In this document: positions 1,745-27,600 of the stretch, piece by piece
Position numbering within the stretch: the first letter of the stretch is position 1
Layout of the letters: every line of letters starts with the position of its first letter
Origin: Vulcanimicrobiota bacterium
GTDB taxonomy: Bacteria; Vulcanimicrobiota; Vulcanimicrobiia; Vulcanimicrobiales; Vulcanimicrobiaceae
Assembly: GCA_003136655.1 (NCBI GenBank)
Contig: PLFC01000034.1
Location: 41,693 to 88,949 of the forward strand
Reading direction: 5' to 3'
DNA: 47,257 nt
Translations under genes and position numbers: made by a program
Notes under the pieces: generated by a model
Databases searched by the model: none
Told to the model about the DNA's origin: nothing
The model's input: only the letters and a program-made list of their open reading frames with translations

Positions 1745-4278
1745 GCCGGGGTTGCCGGCGGCTCGCCGGTGATCTCCTCGATCTGTTTGGTCTGCACGCC
1801 GAGGTTCGTGATCGCGATGACCTCGTCGCCGGCCTCGAGCTTCTGCAAGCGCACGCCCTTGGTGGAGCGGCCCGCGCGCCGGATCTCGGAAACGCGGATG
1901 CGGATGACCTGATTGCCCGAGGTGATGAGCAAGACTTCGTCTTCGGGCTTGACCAAGATCTGGTCGACGACCGAACCGATCTCTTTCTCCTTGGCGAACG
2001 CCTTGACGCCCTTACCGCCGCGCGAGGTGTGGCGGTACTCGTCGATGTTGGTGCGCTTGCCGTACGCCTGCGAGGTGACGATCAGGACTTCGCGGCGGTC
2101 GGCCTCTTCCACGTCCATGGCCACGACCTCGTCGCCCGCCGCGAGGGTGATCGCGCGGACGCCGCGGGCGTTGCGGCCCATGGGCCGCACGTCTTTCTCG
2201 CTGAAGTGCACGGCCATGCCGTCGCGCGTGGCCAGGATGATGTCGCGCGAACCGTCGGAGAGATCGACGGCCAGCAGCTCGTCGTTGTCGTCGAGCGACA
2301 CCGCGTTGAGCCCGTTGCGCCGAATGTTGCCGAACTCGGCCAGCGGCGTCTTCTTGATGACGCCGCGCCGCGTGACCATCACCAGATACGCTTCGCCGTC
2401 GAAGTTGCGGATCGGGAAAACCGCCGTTACGTTTTCGCCCGGCGGTAGGGTCAAGAGGTTGACCAGCGCCGTACCGCGAGCCTGACGCGTGCTGTCGGGA
2501 ATTTCGTACGCCCGCAGGCGATACGCGCGACCCTTGTTCGTGAAGAACAGCACGTGCTGGTGCGTGGTGGTCATGAAGAAGTTGGAGACGACGTCTTCCT
2601 TCTTCAAATTCGCGATGCCGATGACGCCGCGGCCACCGCGATTTTGCGCGCGGAACGTATCGACCGAAACGCGCTTCACGTAGCCGCCGACCGTCGAGGT
2701 GACGACGACGTCGGTATCGGGGATGATGTCCTCGATATTGAGTTCGCCTTCGGCCGGCACGATGGCCGTGCGCCGGGGGTCGGCAAAACGCTTCTTGACG
2801 TCGGCCGCCTCGGTGCCTACCAACGCTGCAACGCGGCTCGGCTTGGCCAGAATGTCTTCCAATTCCGCAATCAAGGCTTTGAGTTGGTTGTATTCATCCT
2901 CGATCTTCTGGCGTTCGAGGCCGGTCAGCGTGCGGAGACGCATGTCGAGGATGGCGTTCGTCTGCGTGAGCGTGAACGCGAAGCGCTCGATCAAGCGTTC
3001 GCGCGCGACGTCGGTCGTGGGGCTCTCGCGAATGATCGTGATGACTTCGTCGATGTGATCGAGCGCGATCCGGAAGCCTTCGAGGATGTGGGCCCGGTCG
3101 TTGGCCTTATCGAGGTCGTACTGCGTCCGGCGCCGGATGACGACTTTGCGGTGCGCCGTGTAGTGTTGGATGAATTGACGCAGCGAGAGCACTTTGGGCT
3201 CGAGGATCGGTGCGGCGCCGGGGATATTGGAGGGCGCGGGCACGAGCGCGAGCATGTTGAAGCCGAAGCTGCTCTGCAAGGGCGTGTGCTTGTAGAGTTG
3301 ATTGAGCACGACGTTGGGAGTGGCCGAACGCTGCAGTTCGACCACGATGCGCATGCCCCGCCGGCTCGACTCGTTGTCGAGACGCGAGATGCCGGGAATC
3401 GACTTCTCTTCGTAGGCCGAGGCGATCGCCTCGACGATGCGCGCCGTCGTCACCTGGAAGGGCACTTCCGTGATGACGATCTTGAACTTGCCCTTCTCTT
3501 CGACGATTTCGGCCTTGCCGCGCACGGCGACCGTACCGCGGCCCGTTTTGTACGCCTGGCGGATCGCCTCGCGACCCATCGCGAAGCCGCCGGTGGGGAA
3601 GTCGGGGCCCTGCACGATGTCGCACAGCGCGTCGTCGAGGGCCTCGTTCGGCTCGTCGATCGACTGCTCGCCGTTATCGATTTCGTATTGGATCAGATAG
3701 GCGATCGCGTCGCAGATTTCGCCCACGTTGTGCGGCGGAATGTTGGTGGCCATGCCGACTGCGATGCCGCTGGAACCGTTGACGAGTAGCTGCGGCAGAC
3801 GGGCCGGCAGCACGGTCGGTTCCGTGCTCTGGTTGTCGAAGTTCGGCACGAAATCGACGGTGTTTTTGTCGATGTCGGCCAACATCTCGAGCGCGATCCG
3901 GGCCAGGCGGGCTTCGGTGTAGCGGTAGGCGGCCGGCGGATCGCCGTCGATCGAACCGAAATTGCCGTGCGGGTCGATCAGCGGATAGCGCAGGGTGAAA
4001 TCCTGAGCCATGCGGACCAGCGCGTCGTACACCGAGGAGTCGCCGTGGGGATGATAGCTCTTGAGCACCTCGCCGATGACGCCGGCGCATTTGCGGTGCT
4101 GTTTGTCGGGGTTGAGATTCATCTCCGACATCGCGTAGAGAATGCGGCGCTGGACGGGCTTGAGGCCGTCGCGCACGTCGGGAAGCGCCCGCGACGCGAT
4201 GACGGACATCGCGTACGAGAGGTACGACTCCCGCATTTCGTCTTCGACGTTTATCTGGGAGATGCGATCGTTATTCAA
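1741..4278 (-). CDS. gyrA: DNA gyrase subunit A
   Basis: An 845-residue type IIA topoisomerase A subunit, normal length for GyrA. The catalytic tyrosine is Tyr120 in RYTEARL. The quinolone-determining residues correspond to Ser81 and Asp85 in [12 protein letters not shown], the wild-type sensitive pattern. The C-terminal domain holds a GyrA box (QNRGGRG, near canonical QRRGGRG), which marks it as gyrase rather than ParC. A second RGGKG occurs in a later blade. There is no acidic tail after [11 protein letters not shown]. The start is TTG at 4278: an in-frame TGA lies four codons upstream and no other start fits the conserved N-terminus. gyrB is not in the window. Confidence 0.96.
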
Positions 4279-4338
4279 TGCAGACTTTCACGCACGGGCG
4301 CGGGCCCGGCGTCGGGGATGCTCCGCGGCTTGGGGGTT

Positions 4339-4521
4339 CTATTCGTGAGCGGGCGTCGGAGGGCGCTCGGTCGAGGAAAACGCCTCGCATGCGGGCGCAG
4401 GCGCCGCCGCGAACACGCCGGTAATGACGCCGTTCGTTAGGCCGTCCGTTTTCCACGACATTACCGCGTCTTTCGCGAAAGCGAGCGCCGGTTCTTTTCC
4501 GGGCGCGGTCGTAACGGGCAC
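4339..4521 (-). CDS. Possible small hypothetical protein upstream of gyrA
   Basis: A GTG-started 60-residue frame in the 255-base gap between divergent gyrA and tsaE. It contains FAKDAVMSWKTDGLTNG and an Ala-rich stretch. About 70% of third codon positions are G or C, lower than in neighbouring genes, and no ribosome binding site is obvious. No family is recognised. It may be chance, because the gap must also hold the gyrA and tsaE promoters. Confidence 0.2.
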   Translation of the reverse strand: MPVTTAPGKEPALAFAKDAVMSWKTDGLTNGVITGVFAAAPAPACEAFSSTERPPTPAHE

Positions 4522-4533
4522 CAGGCCGCGGAC

Positions 4534-4971
4534 GTGAGTTCTGACGGCCTGACGGCGGCCACACCGGCCGATTTCGAGCGACTGGCCGGGGATTTTGCGG
4601 CGACGCTCGGGCCCGGGGACGTCGTGGCCCTCTCGGGCGACCTCGGGGCGGGCAAGACCACCTTTGTACGAGCCGCCGTCCTACGCTTGCTCGGCTCGGA
4701 CGAGGCAACGAGCCCGACCTTCACCCTGCGCCACACCTACGGCGGCTCGCCCCGGATCGAGCACCTCGACCTCTACCGCCTCGACTCGCCCGAGGAGGCC
4801 GTCGAAGCGGGCCTGCACGAGGCGTTCTCCCCGGACGCGATCACCTTCGTGGAGTGGCCGGAACGCGTGCCCGGGCTGCTTCCGGGGAACGTTGTGCGGG
4901 TGGAGATTTCCGGCTCGGGCGACGCGGAGCGCCGCATCACCGTCCGCCGGCCCGGCGGGCGTGAGGCATGA
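4534..4971 (+). CDS. tsaE: tRNA threonylcarbamoyladenosine biosynthesis ATPase TsaE
   Basis: A 145-residue P-loop ATPase that works with TsaB and TsaD to place t6A at position 37 of ANN-decoding tRNAs. The Walker A motif is GDLGAGKTT at 35-43. SPTFTLRHTY (60-69) and HLDLYRLD (77-84) are family hallmarks, and FVEWPERV (105-112) carries the conserved E-W. The start is GTG at 4534, 11 bases after the other strand's small frame. It is the first gene of a coupled cluster, sharing ATGA with tsaB. tsaD is not nearby. Confidence 0.93.
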   Translation: MSSDGLTAATPADFERLAGDFAATLGPGDVVALSGDLGAGKTTFVRAAVLRLLGSDEATSPTFTLRHTYGGSPRIEHLDLYRLDSPEEAVEAGLHEAFSPDAITFVEWPERVPGLLPGNVVRVEISGSGDAERRITVRRPGGREA

Positions 4972-5612
4972 ACGGCGGCGCCGGCCTGCTTCTCGCCCTG
5001 GACGGGGCGCTCGGGCCCTTCTCGGTGGCGCTCGTGGAGCGCCGGCCCGGCGGCTCGGAGCGCACGGCGTCGGTGGCGCCCAATGAGGCGCTGGAACGAG
5101 GTCTGGAAGCGGTCGAGTCGCTGCTCGCCGGAACGCGTCCTGAGGATCTGCAGGCCATCGCCGTCTCGACGGGTCCGGGCGCGTACACGGGCATGCGCAT
5201 CGCGCTGAGTTTCGCGAAGGCGCTGGCGCTGGCGCGGCACCTGCCGCTGATCGCGGTGAATTCGTACGACGTCCTCGACGGGCCCGAAGGGGCGGAACCG
5301 GCCGCTGCGTTCGTGGCCGGCCGGCCCGGACGGGTATGTGCCCGGCTCCGCCTGGAATCTGCCCGGACGGTCTTTTGCGGCGCCGACGCGGAGGTGGCCG
5401 AGGCCCTAGCCGCCGCCCTCGAACCCGGCGCGCGGCTCACGTGCTCGGGCGCCTGGCAGGGCGCTGCTCCGCGCCTCGGCGAACGCGGAATAATCGTGCA
5501 TCCCTCGCCACCGTTCGAACCACCGCCGGCGCTCGCGGTCGCGCGCCGGGCGCTGTGCGGCGAGCCGGCGGAGTCGCCCCACGCCGTGGGCGCGGACTAC
5601 GGGGAACGTTGA
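4968..5612 (+). CDS. tsaB: tRNA threonylcarbamoyladenosine biosynthesis protein TsaB
   Basis: A 214-residue ASKHA-fold protein, the non-catalytic scaffold that pairs with TsaD. Family signatures are the N-terminal LLALDGALGPFSVAL strand-turn, STGPGAYTGMRIALSFAKAL (residues ~67-86) and LPLIAVNSYDVL. The usual 'LDTS' is replaced by LDGA. The C-terminal half is divergent, as is common for TsaB. It overlaps tsaE by four bases (ATGA) and rimI by four bases (TTGA), so all three are probably translationally coupled. Confidence 0.9.
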   Translation: MNGGAGLLLALDGALGPFSVALVERRPGGSERTASVAPNEALERGLEAVESLLAGTRPEDLQAIAVSTGPGAYTGMRIALSFAKALALARHLPLIAVNSYDVLDGPEGAEPAAAFVAGRPGRVCARLRLESARTVFCGADAEVAEALAAALEPGARLTCSGAWQGAAPRLGERGIIVHPSPPFEPPPALAVARRALCGEPAESPHAVGADYGER

Positions 5613-6175
5613 GGGCCGATCTCGACCCCCGCCTGGCCGACCGTCCGGAAGGCCTGCACATCGCACCGATGACGAACGGCGACATCCGCGCCGTGCTGCG
5701 CATCGAGTCGCTGTCGTTTTCCACGTCGTGGCCGCCGAGCGCGTTCACGAGCGAACTCAACGATAACAAGCTCGCGCACTATTTCGTCGGCCGCGCGCGC
5801 AGCGGCGCCGACGGAGACGCGGTCGTGGCCTACGGCGGCATCTGGGTCATCTTGGAAGATGCGCACATCACCACGCTCGCCGTGCATCCCGAGCAGCGCG
5901 GCAAGCGCTACGGCGAACGCATCCTCGTACATTTGCTGCACGAAGCGATCGAACGCGGCGCGTCGTGGATCACGCTCGAGGCGCGCGAGTCCAACACGGT
6001 CGCGCAATCGCTCTACCGCAAATACGGCTTTACGACGGTCTCCACGCGCCGCGCGTACTATAGCGACAACGGCGAAAACGCCGTGGTCATGTGGGCCGGC
6101 AATTTACGCGGCGAACTCTACCGCAATCGCCTCGCCGCTTTGGAACGGCAACTGAACGCGGGCTCGCAACCGTGA
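5609..6175 (+). CDS. rimI: Ribosomal-protein S18 alanine N-acetyltransferase RimI-like GNAT
   Basis: A 188-residue GNAT acetyltransferase. The acetyl-CoA pyrophosphate loop is QRGKRYGERIL (~97-106). TTLAVHPE precedes it, and LEARESNTVAQSLYRKYGF follows, with the Asn and Tyr typical of RimI. The position after tsaE-tsaB is the usual RimI neighbourhood. The domain begins at LHIAPMTNGD, upstream of the first ATG (5669), so I prefer the TTG at 5609, which overlaps the tsaB stop. The C-terminal extension after the GNAT core is about 30 residues and basic. Other N-terminal protein acetylation targets cannot be excluded. Confidence 0.85.
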   Translation: MRADLDPRLADRPEGLHIAPMTNGDIRAVLRIESLSFSTSWPPSAFTSELNDNKLAHYFVGRARSGADGDAVVAYGGIWVILEDAHITTLAVHPEQRGKRYGERILVHLLHEAIERGASWITLEARESNTVAQSLYRKYGFTTVSTRRAYYSDNGENAVVMWAGNLRGELYRNRLAALERQLNAGSQP

Positions 6176-20236: not shown

Positions 20237-21727
20237 GTGCGGCTGCGAATCGACACGGCTCGAACTCTCTTCATCGCGCTCGGCTGTCTGAGCGCGATTG
20301 CGTGCGGGGGCAGCGGCGGGTCGAGTTCTACGCCCGTATCGCACGTGACGCCCATCCCCACGCCCAGCCCAGCGCCGACCGCTTCGCCCACGCCGGCTCC
20401 CACGCTCGCGCCGGCGGGCAGCCTGAAACATTTGGTCTTCATCGTTCAAGAGAATCGCTCGTTCGACGAATACTTCGGCACGTATCCCGGCGCAAACGGC
20501 ATCCCCACCTCGCCGCCGTGCCAGATCGATCCCTGGCATCCGAGCGCGTGCGACACGCCGTATCCCAATCACGTCGACAGCAATCAGGGCGGACCGTACA
20601 CCTACCAGTACCAAGTGCAGCAGGTCGACGGCGGCAAGATGGATGGGTTCGTGGCCGCCAAGGAAGCCGAACTCGGTGAGGGCTGCGCGCCCGGCAACGA
20701 CGGCCGGCAGGCGCGCTCGGGCCGCACGCTCGTCGATCCGGAAGTCGGGCGTCGCGTCTCGCCCGGGTGCTCGATCGACGTCATGGGCTATCACGACGGA
20801 ACCGATCTGCCCAATTACTGGGCCTACGCGCGCAACTACGTGCTTCAAGACAACTTCTTCGAGTCGATTCAATCCTGGAGTCTGCCCGCGCACCTCGCGC
20901 TCTTCTCCGGCTGGGCCGCAGTCTGCTCGCAGATCAATCCGCCCAACGTCAACAGTTGCTCGAGCACGACCAACGGCGAGCAGTGGGAGCAGACGGGTCA
21001 GTACGAAATCCCGTACCTCTGGACCGACATCACCTATCTGCTCTACCAGAAGAACATTGCGTGGAAAGCGTATCTCGACGGTGGCTTGGGCTCGCCGATC
21101 GGCGCGCCCTTCGACAAGGTGCAAGGCATCTGGATTCCGCTCGGCGGCTTCGAGACCGTCAACCAGGACGGCCAGTATCTCAACGCCGTGGGCAATACGA
21201 CGACGCAATTTTACTCGGACGCGGCCAACGGTACGTTGCCCCAGGTTTCGTGGGTGCTGCCGAATTACTACGACAGCGAGCATCCGCAAGCGACCATTTC
21301 CGACGGCCAAGCCTACGTGACGGGGCTGATCAACGCCGTCGCAAGCGGCCCCTCGGCGCAATGGAATAGCACCGCGATCTTCCTGGTGTGGGACGACATG
21401 GGCGGCTTCTACGATCACCAGCCGCCGGGTTTCAACTTCGATGCGCTGGGTTTGGGCATGCGCGTTCCGGCCCTGATCATCAGCCCGCTCGCCAAGCGCG
21501 GCTACATCGATCATCAACTCTGCAGCACCGACTGCTACCTCAAACTCATCGAAGACGTCTTCCTCGGCAGCGAACGGATGAGCCAAGCGGGACGCCCCGA
21601 TCCACGACCCGACTATCGCGACCAAGAGAGCGCTTACGGCAGTCTGCTCAACGACTTCAACATCGCCGCACCACCGCGCAAGCCGTTGATTTTGCGGCCC
21701 CATCCCATGACGTTGCTTCATCGATAA
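20237..21727 (+). CDS. Phosphoesterase lipoprotein (phospholipase C / acid phosphatase family)
   Basis: A 496-residue PF04185-type phosphoesterase. The N-terminus is a lipoprotein signal (LFIALGCLSAIAC, lipidated Cys23), then a Ser/Pro/Thr linker with TPSPAPTASPTPAP. The catalytic domain starts at LKHLVFIVQENRSFDEYFGTYPG and includes the second family motif DDMGGFYDHQPPG. Members hydrolyse phospholipids or phosphomonoesters outside the cell. The sequence does not distinguish these activities. A row of 11-bp-period GTTAC repeats begins just after its stop. GTG at 20237 is the start used. Confidence 0.9.
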   Translation: MRLRIDTARTLFIALGCLSAIACGGSGGSSSTPVSHVTPIPTPSPAPTASPTPAPTLAPAGSLKHLVFIVQENRSFDEYFGTYPGANGIPTSPPCQIDPWHPSACDTPYPNHVDSNQGGPYTYQYQVQQVDGGKMDGFVAAKEAELGEGCAPGNDGRQARSGRTLVDPEVGRRVSPGCSIDVMGYHDGTDLPNYWAYARNYVLQDNFFESIQSWSLPAHLALFSGWAAVCSQINPPNVNSCSSTTNGEQWEQTGQYEIPYLWTDITYLLYQKNIAWKAYLDGGLGSPIGAPFDKVQGIWIPLGGFETVNQDGQYLNAVGNTTTQFYSDAANGTLPQVSWVLPNYYDSEHPQATISDGQAYVTGLINAVASGPSAQWNSTAIFLVWDDMGGFYDHQPPGFNFDALGLGMRVPALIISPLAKRGYIDHQLCSTDCYLKLIEDVFLGSERMSQAGRPDPRPDYRDQESAYGSLLNDFNIAAPPRKPLILRPHPMTLLHR

Positions 21728-22772: not shown

Positions 22773-23216
22773 CTACGTCGAGAGCGTCGCCTCGAGCGTG
22801 ATGGGCACCGCCTTGAGCGCTTTGCTCAACGGACACGATTCCTTCGCGTCGCCGGCATATTTCTCGAAATCCGCTTGCGTGATGCCGGGCACGACGCCGG
22901 TCACGGCGAGTGCGATCGAGGTGATCGTGAAGCCGGGACCGTCCTTCGACAACTGCACCTTTGCCGTACTATCGAGCGACGTCGGCGCGTGGCCCGCGCG
23001 CGTGAGCACTGCGCTCAGCGCCATCGTGAAGCAAGCCGCATGCGACGCACCGAGCAGTTCTTCGGGATTCGTTCCCGGGTCGCCGCTGAAGCGCGTGCCG
23101 AAAGAATAGTCGGCGGAGACCTTTCCGCTTTCGGTCGCAATCGATCCGCGCCCGCGCGCGACGTCGCCCTCCCAGTGAATGGAGGCCGACCGGACGATTT
23201 CATCTGGTGGATTCAT
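22773..23216 (-). CDS. OsmC-type peroxiredoxin
   Basis: A 147-residue thiol peroxidase of the OsmC/Ohr family, which reduces organic hydroperoxides. The two redox cysteines are in ASHAACFTMALS and in KESCPLSKALKAVP. The preceding NPEELLGASHA and N-terminal HWEGDVARGRG with FGTRFSGDPGT match OsmC rather than Ohr. The start ATG at 23216 begins MNPPDEIV. It faces the efflux operon across 112 bases that must hold both promoters. Confidence 0.92.
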   Translation of the reverse strand: MNPPDEIVRSASIHWEGDVARGRGSIATESGKVSADYSFGTRFSGDPGTNPEELLGASHAACFTMALSAVLTRAGHAPTSLDSTAKVQLSKDGPGFTITSIALAVTGVVPGITQADFEKYAGDAKESCPLSKALKAVPITLEATLST

Positions 23217-23328
23217 ATCGGTTTCGACGCGAGAAAACGTCCGAGAGTTTCGCGCGTCGTGGCCGATCCTGGGCCTTTCCTTAGAACGTTTTAGCCGGAC
23301 CGCGTTCGGGAAAAACGGCGCCACTACC

Positions 23329-24660
23329 GTGAAGAGAGAAGCGATCGTTCGACGGAGCATATGGTTGCTCTTGAGCCTTTGTACGGGCTGCGGCAACAAG
23401 GCCGAAGCCGCCGCGAAGGCGACGCCGCCTCCGCCGCAGGTGCAGACCGTCGCGGCCCGCGAGGGCAACCTCTCACCCAGCGTGCAGATCGCGGGCGTGA
23501 TCGCGCCCTACCGTCAGGTGGCCGTAACCGCCAACCTCTCCGAACCGCTGGCCGACGTCGATGTGGTCGAGGGTCAGGAGGTTCATGCGGGACAGGTTCT
23601 GGCGCGTCAATTGACCGACGACTTGGAAGCGCAACTCGCGTCGTCGGAGCGGGTGGTTAGCGAAGACGCGGCGCGGTACGCGCAGACCCAATATCAAACG
23701 ACCGCGACCACCGCGCAAAACAACACCGGCGTCACCTCGGCGCAAGATGCGCTGCGCGAGGCGCAAGTGAACCTCGCCGGCGCCCAAACCGACCTTCGGC
23801 GCTACCAGCAGCTCGCGGCCGGCGGATACATCCCGGAGCAGACCCTCGATCAGCAGCGCGTGGTGGTCGCGAGCGACCTTCAAGCGGTCCAGGCTGCGCG
23901 GGCCAATCTGCAGGCTGCCGTGGTGAACGATAGCGCCAACGGCAACGGCCAGAACGCGGGCGCCCAACTGCAAGAGATCGAGGCGGCCCGGCAAGCGGTA
24001 GACGCGGCCCAGGCGACCGTGAATCAGCTCAAGGCCGAGATCGCCCGCGCCGTGATCGTCGCCCCCGTCGACGGCATCGTCGATTCGGTCAATGCGAATC
24101 CGGGCGAGTATCCCTCCGGTCGCCAGCTCTTCACCATCGAGCAGAACAGTCGCGTCTACGCGGTGCTGCCCGCGTCGACGGCGCAGGTGCTCAGCGTGCG
24201 GCGCGGAGCCGCCGCGTCGGTCGAAGTGAACACCAGTTACAGCGCAAACCCCCGCTGGCATAAGGATCGCGGCGTGGTGGATGCGGTGCTCGATCAAGTC
24301 CAGCCGGGCACGACCAACTTCACCGTCAAGGTCCTCGTCGACAACGCCGACCAGCATTTGCACGCGGGCATGCCGGTGAACGGCTACGTGGATCTGCCCA
24401 CGGTGCGCGGCTTGCTGATCCCCGACACGGCCTTCATCGACGACACGCGCACCACCGTCTACACCGTCGACGGCGGCGTCGTGCACCAGAAAGCGGTCGA
24501 CGAAGTCGCCGACGACGGCGCGCAGGCCGTCGTCACCGGCCTCGCCGCCGGAGAGTTGGTGATCAAGAACGTCAACGCGGTGACCGTCGGCAACGGCGAC
24601 CGCGCGCAGCCGGTCGGCGGCGTGCCGAAGAGCACCGCGAGCGAAGCACCGTCTAAATAG
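23329..24660 (+). CDS. RND efflux periplasmic adaptor (membrane fusion protein)
   Basis: A 443-residue HlyD/AcrA-type adaptor. GTG at 23329 starts a short signal sequence ending LCTGCGNK, which may be lipidated. A lipoyl-like half (IAGVIAPYRQVAVTANLSEPLADVDVVEGQEVHAGQVLA) is followed by a long coiled-coil hairpin (~100-240, Gln/Ala-rich, with DALREAQVNLAGAQTDL), the second lipoyl half (IVAPVDGIVDSVNANPGEYPSGRQL) and the beta-barrel (HLHAGMPVNGYVDLP). It links the inner-membrane pump to an outer-membrane channel. No TolC gene is present here. The stop is followed immediately by the pump ATG. Confidence 0.92.
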   Translation: MKREAIVRRSIWLLLSLCTGCGNKAEAAAKATPPPPQVQTVAAREGNLSPSVQIAGVIAPYRQVAVTANLSEPLADVDVVEGQEVHAGQVLARQLTDDLEAQLASSERVVSEDAARYAQTQYQTTATTAQNNTGVTSAQDALREAQVNLAGAQTDLRRYQQLAAGGYIPEQTLDQQRVVVASDLQAVQAARANLQAAVVNDSANGNGQNAGAQLQEIEAARQAVDAAQATVNQLKAEIARAVIVAPVDGIVDSVNANPGEYPSGRQLFTIEQNSRVYAVLPASTAQVLSVRRGAAASVEVNTSYSANPRWHKDRGVVDAVLDQVQPGTTNFTVKVLVDNADQHLHAGMPVNGYVDLPTVRGLLIPDTAFIDDTRTTVYTVDGGVVHQKAVDEVADDGAQAVVTGLAAGELVIKNVNAVTVGNGDRAQPVGGVPKSTASEAPSK

Positions 24661-27600
24661 ATGAGCCTGACCCGAGCCTTTCTCAAGCGCTCGACGCTGA
24701 CGTTCGTCTTCGTCACGCTGACGTGTCTTGCCGGGATCTTCGCGTTGCGCACGCTCGTCGTGCAGCAGATGCCGAACACCGGCGAACCGACGATCAACGT
24801 GCAGGTAAGCTATAACGGTGCTTCGACCACCGAACTGCAAACAGAGGTGGCCGAACCGATCGAAGACCAGATCGCAGGCACGCCGTATCTCGATCACATC
24901 GACACGACGATCGAGTCGGGCAACGTTTCGATCGCGGCCTCGTTTGCGCTGACCTCCACCGACACCGAGAACATCGCCAACGTCGAGAAGGCGCTGCAGG
25001 CGGCGCAGCGCCAATTGCCTTCCACGATTCAGGCGCCCACGATTCGCGTCGCCGACCCGAGCGAACCGAACGTTCTGACGATCTCGCTCGTCTCCAAGAA
25101 GTATAATCCCGAAGTGCTCGGTGCGCTGACCAACAATCAGATCGTGCCGGCCATCGAGCAGTACCAGGGCGTGTCGCAGGCCTCGGTTTACGGCACGACT
25201 CAGGCCGCCTACGAAGTGCTGGTCAATCCCAACCTGCTCGCCGCGGACAACCTGACGCTGACCGACGTGGTCAACGCGATTTCGCCCAACAACCTGCGCG
25301 CGCCGGGCGGCATCATCTACCAACCCGGCCGCGAGACGCAGATCGACGTGCGCGGCGACATCTTCGATCCGCAGTCGGTCGCCAATCTGCCGATCCACGT
25401 GGCGTATGCGGGCACCTCGTCGGCCACGACGGCCACCGGCGGCGCGGGCGGAACGGGCGCGTCGAGCGGCGCCGGCACATCGGCGAGCGGAGCCTCCGGG
25501 AGCACCGGCTCGTCGGCGGGCGCCGGAAGCTCGGGCGCGAACGGCGCGGGCGCGGCGAGCAGCGGCGGAACCGGCAGCGCCACGCTGAACACCGCCGCGC
25601 CGAGCAGCGGCGGATCGAGCGGCACGGAAACGCCTGCGCCGTCGGCGACGAGCGCTGCCGTAGCGGTCCCGTCGATCGCGCCCGCGGCGAGCGCTACCGG
25701 TGCGGCCGCGTCGGTTTCGGCGCCGTCAGCGAGGAGCACCGCGGCGGCGTACTCGTCGGGGGTATCTGCGCCGGCTCCGGCAACGAACGGCGAGCCGGCG
25801 AACTCCACTCCCATCGATACGCCGGTCACGGTCAGCGGCATCACGTCGACCGCGGGTTCGAGTTCGGGCGCAGCCTCGACGACCTCGGCGGCCACCGCAT
25901 CGCAAGAGGCCGCGACGTTGCCTTCCGCATCCTCGAGCGAATACGGCACCGGCAGCGGCACGTCGCTCTCACCCTTCGTCGGCATCCTGAGCCCGTGGGC
26001 CGTGCCGTCGGCCGACAAGCGCATCTCCGACGTGGCGCAGGTGATCGACGGCAGCGTCGTGCCGCGCGTTTTCGCAACGCTCGACGGGCGGCCGGGCGTG
26101 GGCGTCAACATCCAAAAGGCCACGACCGCGAGCGAAGTCTCCGTCGCAAACGAAGTAATCGCCGCGCTTCCGAAGCTGCGTACGCAATTTCCGGGCATCG
26201 ATTTCGAGGTCGCGCACAACCAGTCGACCTTCACCGAGCAGCAACTCGAATCGGTCGAACACACGCTGATCGAAGGCATCATCCTCACTGCGGTCGTGAT
26301 GCTCTTCTTCCTGAAGTCGTGGCGCAACGCGGTGGTGGTGATGGTCGCGATCCCCACCTCGCTCGGCGTGACGCTCTTCGCGATGAAGCTGCTCAGCCTC
26401 ACGCTCGATACCATCTCGTTGATGGCCATGACGCTCGTGATCGGCATCCTGATCGACGACTCGACCGTCGTCTTGGAGAACATCGAGCGCCATCGCGACA
26501 TGGGCGAAGAACCCGCCGATGCCGCGCTCAACGGCCGCAGCGAGATCGGCTTGGCGGCCATCGTGATCACGATGGTCGACGTGGTGGTCTTTCTACCCAT
26601 TGCCTTTGCGGGCGGCCAGGTCGGCGTACAGCTCTCGGAATTCGGCATCGTCGTGTCGATCGCGACGCTGACCTCGCTCTTCGTTTCGTTTACGGTGACG
26701 CCCGTGCTGGCCGGGCTGTGGTCGATGAAATCGACCTGGAAGCCGTGGAAATTCATCCTCTGGTTCGACGATCGCTTCAACGCGCTGCGCGACCGCTATT
26801 CCAAGCGCCTCCTTCCCGCCGCGATGCGCAGTCCGTGGCCGATCGTGATCGTCTCGATCGTGCTCTGCGTGCTGGCGTTTCTCTTGGTGCCCACCGGCTT
26901 CATCGGCGAGGAATACCAGCCGGTGCAGGATCAAGGCATCATCTACGCGCGCCTCACCTTACCGCCGGGCTATCCGCTGGCCCAAACGCACGCGCTGATG
27001 CTGCGCCTCGAAGCCAAGGCACGCCAAACCGTCACCGGCAGCGACTTCCTGAGCGAACAGACGATCGCTGGAGGTTACGCGGCCGAATTCGGCGGCTTCG
27101 TGCAAGAAGGCAACGTCGGGCAGATCTCGATCTATCTGTCGAACGATCACAAGACCTCGACGACGGAGTACGTCACGCGCTTGCAATCGGCCCTGGGCGA
27201 GATCGCGCCGCCCGGCAGCCTCAACGTCGTGCAGGCGACGCAGCAAGGCGGCGGCGTGCAGCAGGCCATCGACGAACTCGTCTCCACGAGCAACGGCGAA
27301 GACCCCACGCCGTATGCCGCCAAGGTGTACGCGGCGCTCAAGGCTACGCCCGGCGCGCAAGGCGCGACCGACAGTGCGAGCAATGCCGCCCCGCAGGTCG
27401 AAGTCGATTTCGACCGCGTGAAACTCCAGCAGCTCGACGTCTCGGTCGGCACCGCGGCGACGGCGATCGAAGCGGCCTTCGGCGGCGACGAGGCGACGCA
27501 GATCGAAACCGCGCAGGCCGGCCTCACCGAGATTTTGGTCGAGTATCCGTTGCCGGATCAAAACTCGCTGCCCGCGCTGCTCAACATCCCGATTCGCTCG

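Follow-up and report, generated by a model that had tools for sequence, protein, structure and literature searches.

An RND permease encoded in the window (the whole stretch of DNA analysed, 47,257 nucleotides of a Vulcanimicrobiota bacterium) carries a low-complexity segment of 208 residues, which is almost certainly a flexible loop at the tip of a docking hairpin and is very probably maintained by selection. In the window's own family, this hairpin loop is a recurrent hot spot of length change. We favour, with a probability of about 0.38, the reading that the loop is a selected, disordered and flexible collar at the joint between pump and adaptor, a function inferred from its site. A rival reading, in which an expansion without a function of its own is tolerated, is nearly as likely.

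The pump gene and its expanded hairpin loop

The two genes at issue are the following:

23179–24660, plus strand: RND periplasmic adaptor (HlyD/AcrA type), ORF of 493 aa; TIGR01730 at 137.8 bits against a cut-off of 94.9, with matches to PF16576 and PF13437
24661–28416, plus strand: HAE-1 RND permease P0001, 1251 aa; PF00873 match in two stretches; model nearest to the structures of AdeB, MdtF, AcrD, MexB and AcrB

The adaptor ORF ends at position 24660 and the pump starts at 24661, which places the adaptor directly 5′ of the pump; by inspection, the real start of the adaptor is probably more internal, near a lipobox-like LCTGC. Both the adjacent adaptor gene and the PF00873 score (691 bits, curated cut-off 28) assign the pump to HAE-1, the AcrB family. 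The PF00873 match is split by the loop, halting at profile position 246 and resuming at 254. With 617 bits against a curated cut-off of 1250, the pump falls outside the NCBIfam family NF033617 (RND_permease_2). Its residues D599, D600, K1133 and R1166 are invariant in an alignment of seven pumps and represent the proton relay, which in AcrB we take to consist of D407, D408, K940 and R971; in a profile alignment, the DD, KN and RP motifs of the pump are also present in AcrB. The predicted structure has the RND fold (best match AdeB 7b8p, Z 52.2, 865 aligned residues, rmsd 5.3, for a model with a mean pLDDT of 61). The pump is unpaired: a single RND permease stands next to the adaptor, not two as in MdtBC-like systems, and the other PF00873 match on contig C130 lies about 58 kb away.

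Within the pump, the loop and its parts were delimited as follows:

25396–26019, plus strand: expanded DN hairpin-1 loop, residues 246–453, 208 aa with 157 A/G/S/T, 75 S/T and 8 charged residues; anchors shared with short-loop relatives
25810–25827, plus strand: short motif PIDTPV, residues 384–389, from the orthologue loop alignment
25918–26019, plus strand: C-terminal loop module, residues 420–453, from the orthologue alignment
26020–26037, plus strand: strand after the loop, RISDVA, residues 454–459, matching AcrB from 261 onwards

An earlier note on this DNA had described a long, in-frame, low-complexity segment of 190 residues in the 1251-residue pump. The segment was confirmed and is slightly longer: with boundaries set between the last and the first positions common to short-loop relatives, the loop covers residues 246–453, and the interval 25411–25980 (residues 251–440) is its core. 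Ala, Ser, Gly and Thr account for 75% of the loop; the richest stretch of 190 residues contains 152 of them, compared with 32% in the remainder of the pump (binomial 7e-42, one stretch). At codon positions 1, 2 and 3, GC is 0.56/0.84/0.86 within the loop, compared with 0.62/0.43/0.85 in the remainder of the pump. Given the values at position 2 (0.84 vs. 0.43), the GC peak at the loop results from this codon position and hence reflects the choice of amino acids.

Two other low-complexity stretches were observed in the window. The ORF at 20237–21727, perhaps a phosphoesterase judging from its protein text, has a Pro/Ser/Thr-rich linker right after a lipobox-like cysteine near the ORF start. A minus-strand open frame of 267 residues, read from 37715, includes an Ala/Ser-rich stretch and may oppose a real gene.

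An AlphaFold2 (AF2) model was calculated for residues 26–1225. Within this RND-like model, no secondary structure was assigned in the loop, and pLDDT was below 50 at model positions 224–426 (residues 249–451), with block means of 24–29 over residues 256–445. The model suggests that the loop is disordered; because the AF2 alignment had a depth of seven sequences, disorder is suggested rather than proven. The profile puts AcrB 261–263 on the strand following the loop, and in the phmmer alignment residue 451 corresponds to AcrD 258. The loop replaces the tip of the β-hairpin of DN, the funnel or docking subdomain, AcrB about 252–260, where the equivalence on the N-side was set by inspection and by loop length (8–10 residues in short-loop relatives), MAFFT having put that AcrB stretch elsewhere. 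The earlier proposal of a flexible insert in the periplasmic docking region is borne out by a segment, modelled as unstructured, at the tip of DN β-hairpin 1. A normal domain was considered and rejected: no Pfam or NCBIfam match was found inside the loop (E up to 0.001) and no structure was predicted for it.

Conserved pieces were read from an alignment of seven orthologue loops, one of them represented by its C-terminal part alone. The tether part aligned poorly. The C-terminal module, [YF]G[ST]G[AS]G[TV]xxSxF[VI]GxxxxWAVPSAD[KR], was kept in all seven; a P-W or similar cap ahead of the strand occurs in many short-loop relatives, too. Strict copies of the motif P[VI]DxPV occur in three loops, and near variants in the other four. 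Short repeated runs are present in the loops of the relatives L011 and L034. In the window loop, one weak tandem-repeat array alone was found (score 34, 25438–25476), and a tandem-repeat origin was rejected.

Loop length across relatives

A scan of genome contigs yielded a Rhizobiales pump and three loci from two Candidatus Eremiobacterota assemblies, one in palsa_1479 and two on separate contigs of palsa_1516. The search of the window's family gave matches at E ≤ 1e-100 in 56 of 99 genomes. From 136 ORFs with both anchors, 112 non-redundant pumps, almost all belonging to the window's family, remained after duplicates and alignments short of an anchor were dropped. Their loops are 6–264 residues long, and 14 of the 112 have at least 130 residues. 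Insertions of at least 20 residues are restricted to model positions 239–245, the hairpin tip, and elsewhere the maximum is 14 (109 pumps, three short ones being omitted here and from the tree; the core profile was built from the same 109 pumps, and an insertion common to most would stay hidden).

The alignment of homologues proposed in the earlier note revealed an insert that is common to relatives and of variable length. All six measured members of the window clade, whose C-terminal parts are 66–71% identical to that of the window pump, have long loops of 153, 155, 199, 208, 256 and 264 residues. Some metagenome contigs break inside or just after such loops: the ends of L009 and L010, the palsa_1516 pair, overlap within the loop, and contig G093:C17 (L205) starts at query residue 25. 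With contigs ending at such loops, the number of long ones may be underestimated.

Breaks of this type occur at repeats and would fit an assembly or frameshift artefact, the alternative named in the earlier note. There is practically no chance of this, however, as five other genomes carry the loop in one open frame (L011 from palsa_1479 with 256 residues, L034 with 264, L107 with 199, L035 with 155 and L106 with 153), which makes six genomes with that of the window, and synonymous divergence in the loop is of the same order as in the flanks. A shared, constrained, in-frame loop refutes the artefact.

In the same phylum outside the family, 32 of the homologous pumps found were measured directly, the phylum-wide PF00873 list being sorted by score so that split matches would drop off. 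Their loops have 4–31 residues, with 31, 29 and 25 in three pumps of the same order or class and 4–14 in the others; these lengths are approximate, since the N-side anchor was extrapolated by at least 20 residues for L001–L004, L152, L177, L178 and pump B of L015, and by fewer in further ones. The best 60 of 83 PDB sequences are 1031–1069 residues long and thus leave no room for such a loop. Among 40 matches listed of at least 5000 to plasmid pumps, the match span is about 2.9–3.2 kb, too short for a loop of this size. The insert had been called unusual, which holds against the RND pumps sampled outside the family, but within the family this site changes length repeatedly.

The origins of the long loops were traced on a tree built by maximum likelihood from 109 pump cores, the loop having been removed (quick IQ-TREE, SH-aLRT supports alone). 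Loops of at least 130 residues (14 of 109 rows) require five changes: in the window clade, in L140, in the clade of L087, L117, L122, L134 and L139, in L124 and in L118. A single clade for the 14 long-loop rows was rejected by the AU test (p 3e-46), with the group named after the tree was seen. L124 and L118 belong to a nine-member clade in which the other seven have 57–58 residues. With the threshold at 50 residues (26 of 109 rows), two changes alone are needed, and the tandem expansions therefore build on an already lengthened loop. The tandem pumps L097, L116, L128, L130, L131, L136 and L138, all of one clade, share a hairpin loop of near-constant length (57–58 residues) with similar sequence around TSPSGTxTQKYTGxxGTTNQAL; the loop is perhaps a folded extension.

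The tandem relatives fall in clades other than that of the window pump. In all 17 pairs measured on both sides, the upstream pump has a loop of 50–227 residues and the downstream pump one of 19–25. The adaptor lies directly before the upstream pump in the seven tandem regions examined, giving the order adaptor, pump a, pump b.

Selection on the loop and its possible role

Over six pairs, pN/pS in long loops was 0.28–0.59. Three close pairs with few gaps, two of which share L139, had loop values of 0.30–0.35, or 0.34–0.41 once the final 45 codons were excluded (Fisher p 4e-11 to 5e-4); their flanks had 0.05–0.14, so that the loop was about 2.5 to 6 times higher. The other long-loop pairs gave 0.28 (L134/L122) and, in two more diverged pairs, 0.50 (L117/L139) and 0.59 (L011/L034, flanks 0.24–0.38). 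Three pairs with loops of 55–57 residues had values of 0.14–0.17. When a single-base replacement altered an A/G/S/T/P codon, the new residue belonged to the same set in 54 of 61 directed changes, compared with an expected 53% under even base use or 72% under GC-weighted use; z values of 3.1 and 5.7 are inflated, since every change was counted both ways and two of the three pairs share L139. Selection on the long loops is relaxed, yet it is purifying in each of the three pairs for which this was tested. Together, pN/pS and the substitution bias indicate constraint on both the sequence and the composition of the loop, though a weaker one than on the folded part.

The same observations bear on a tolerated expansion, in which replication slippage in GC-rich repeats lengthens a permissive hairpin tip and selection merely removes aggregating or misfolding residues. 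This reading predicts replacements that stay within A/G/S/T/P just as well and agrees with a loop pN/pS above that of the flanks, with the variable length among orthologues (153–264), with the repeated runs in L011 and L034, and with growth confined to one exposed turn. A slippage-prone loop does not, however, explain the C-terminal module kept in 7/7 orthologues. The rule found in 17/17 pairs would be unexpected if any hairpin tip may grow, and neither the long loops in every measured member of the window clade at the given sequence identity nor the scarcity of tandem arrays in the window loop favours this reading.

The collar reading draws first on the site of the loop; the predicted disorder, the confinement of growth to one site, the roughly five separate expansions, the tandem-pair rule and the purifying selection speak for it as well, while the poorly conserved length among orthologues (153–264), the poorly aligning tether and the raised loop pN/pS speak against it. 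In AcrAB-TolC, S258 in the DN hairpin of AcrB is reported as disulfide-linked to S273 of the AcrA β-barrel, and in the resting pump the AcrA dimer pairs are described as separated by gaps whose closure transport requires (PMC5404916). Harmful adaptor mutations are reported to concentrate round DN hairpin 1 and DC hairpin 2, gripped "in a pincer-like fashion" (PMC6975555). According to PMC4446572, citing Weeks 2014, deletion of the AcrB hairpins leads to the loss of TolC from the complex, while the association of AcrA with AcrB is independent of the AcrB hairpins. The hairpin is therefore not needed for adaptor binding itself, which is why the collar is given 0.38 and not 0.40. In a homotrimer of the window pump, three copies of the loop would be arranged around the crown that seats the adaptor ring. 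The conserved C-terminal module may re-form the hairpin base against the adaptor, and the A/S/G/T tether could fill or bridge the pump-adaptor joint. The tether might thereby help to close the adaptor-dimer gaps of the resting pump and/or hold a channel encoded elsewhere. A putative effect of the loop on adaptor or channel contacts is plausible.

By eye, no low-complexity or co-varying insert was seen in 16 aligned adaptors, which speaks against the collar. In the segments matching AcrA S219 and G272/S273 (13 adaptors and AcrA), the window clade differs from the tandem clade, and no change with loop length is visible. Around the window clade, no common neighbour beyond the adaptor was obvious in the unannotated ORF lists, except between L105 and L106.

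A different role would be that of a fly-casting tether, with the C-terminal module and perhaps the PIDTPV-like motif as binding pieces with which the loop would capture an outer-membrane channel or some other partner in the envelope. A conserved module against a low-complexity background would suit this role, as would the lack of a linked channel gene, a gene that is common but not obligatory beside such pumps. None of the 12 OEP matches in the window's genome (75.6% complete) lies on contig C130. Across 14 genomes that encode long-loop or tandem pumps, three OEP matches alone lie near these pumps, all weak, partial and immediately upstream of the pair (G005 with 30.4 bits, G006 with 32.9 and G022 with 26.0), of which that of G005 falls in the adaptor's own frame. 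The next nearest matches listed on the pump contigs are 93 kb away (G093:C21) or further (G096:C4), within a view limited by contig ends. Seven query ORFs searched for channel homologues in 19 regions and three control loci matched L004 alone, which holds the query gene and is a weak control. Tandem pumps with loops of 57–70 residues (G096, G044) are likewise without a linked channel, however; long- and shorter-loop pumps being alike, linkage fails to separate them. The motif, moreover, is strict in only 3/7 loops, and we consider a fly-casting tether improbable.

Still less probable is a putative O-glycosylated tether, a form of the glycosylated tether suggested in the earlier note. The Ser/Thr content (75 of 208 residues) would allow it, and ten PF02366-like (PMT-like) matches, eight above the cut-off, were found in the window's genome. 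Eight of the 14 control genomes, E. coli included, match PF02366 as well; the profile is thus unspecific, and its matches do not demonstrate protein O-glycosylation. The window loop contains one N-X-S/T site.

Comparison with known systems

In the open-licence literature, covered partly by title, no report was found of such a docking-hairpin loop in RND pumps or of RND pumps from Eremiobacterota. The open-licence literature likewise yielded no report of a longer upstream-pump loop in two-pump systems. A broader proposition, which we regard as rather unlikely, is that RND pumps in this Eremiobacterota family have repeatedly gained, at the adaptor-facing hairpin, a collar of disordered polymer that serves as an entropic gasket or gate for the efflux duct and is kept asymmetric in two-pump systems, long in the upstream subunit and short in the downstream one. 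For machines of the AcrAB-TolC type, a disordered gasket or gate as a means of sealing or regulating tripartite pumps is undescribed in the open-licence literature surveyed, part of it seen by title. A lineage in which this hairpin tip has gained up to 264 residues on about five occasions, with purifying selection acting and, in paired pumps, a single member affected, offers a natural experiment on how much of the contact is needed and on whether disorder can seal or regulate the pump-adaptor joint. Such loops also blur annotation, as Pfam and NCBIfam matches are split and some metagenome contigs end there.

An outer-membrane copper channel with a disordered region (PMC12509749) is likewise an envelope efflux protein with a disordered segment, but belongs to another family and another membrane. 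Two MdtC-like pumps have A/S/T/G-rich inserts, one from Rhizobiales (L012, 6001–9231) and one from an IMG/VR contig (L015 pump B, 2730–6050). Their insert lies on the DC side, in the second-half loop that mirrors the DN loop, whereas their DN loop has 8 residues. These pumps suggest that, in other bacteria, the second docking hairpin can lengthen as well.

The E. coli pump AcrB of AcrAB-TolC resembles the window pump in family, fold, proton-relay motifs and the position of hairpin 1 of DN, but has a short turn at about 252–260 in place of 208 residues. The two-pump systems MdtBC and MuxBC differ from the window pump, which is encoded by a single pump gene, and find their counterpart in the tandem relatives of the family. 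E. coli MdtBC is reported to be a B2C1 heterotrimer, and the order adaptor, pump a, pump b in the tandem relatives is that reported for MdtABC (PMC7015380); in these relatives, it is the upstream pump that has the longer hairpin-1 loop.
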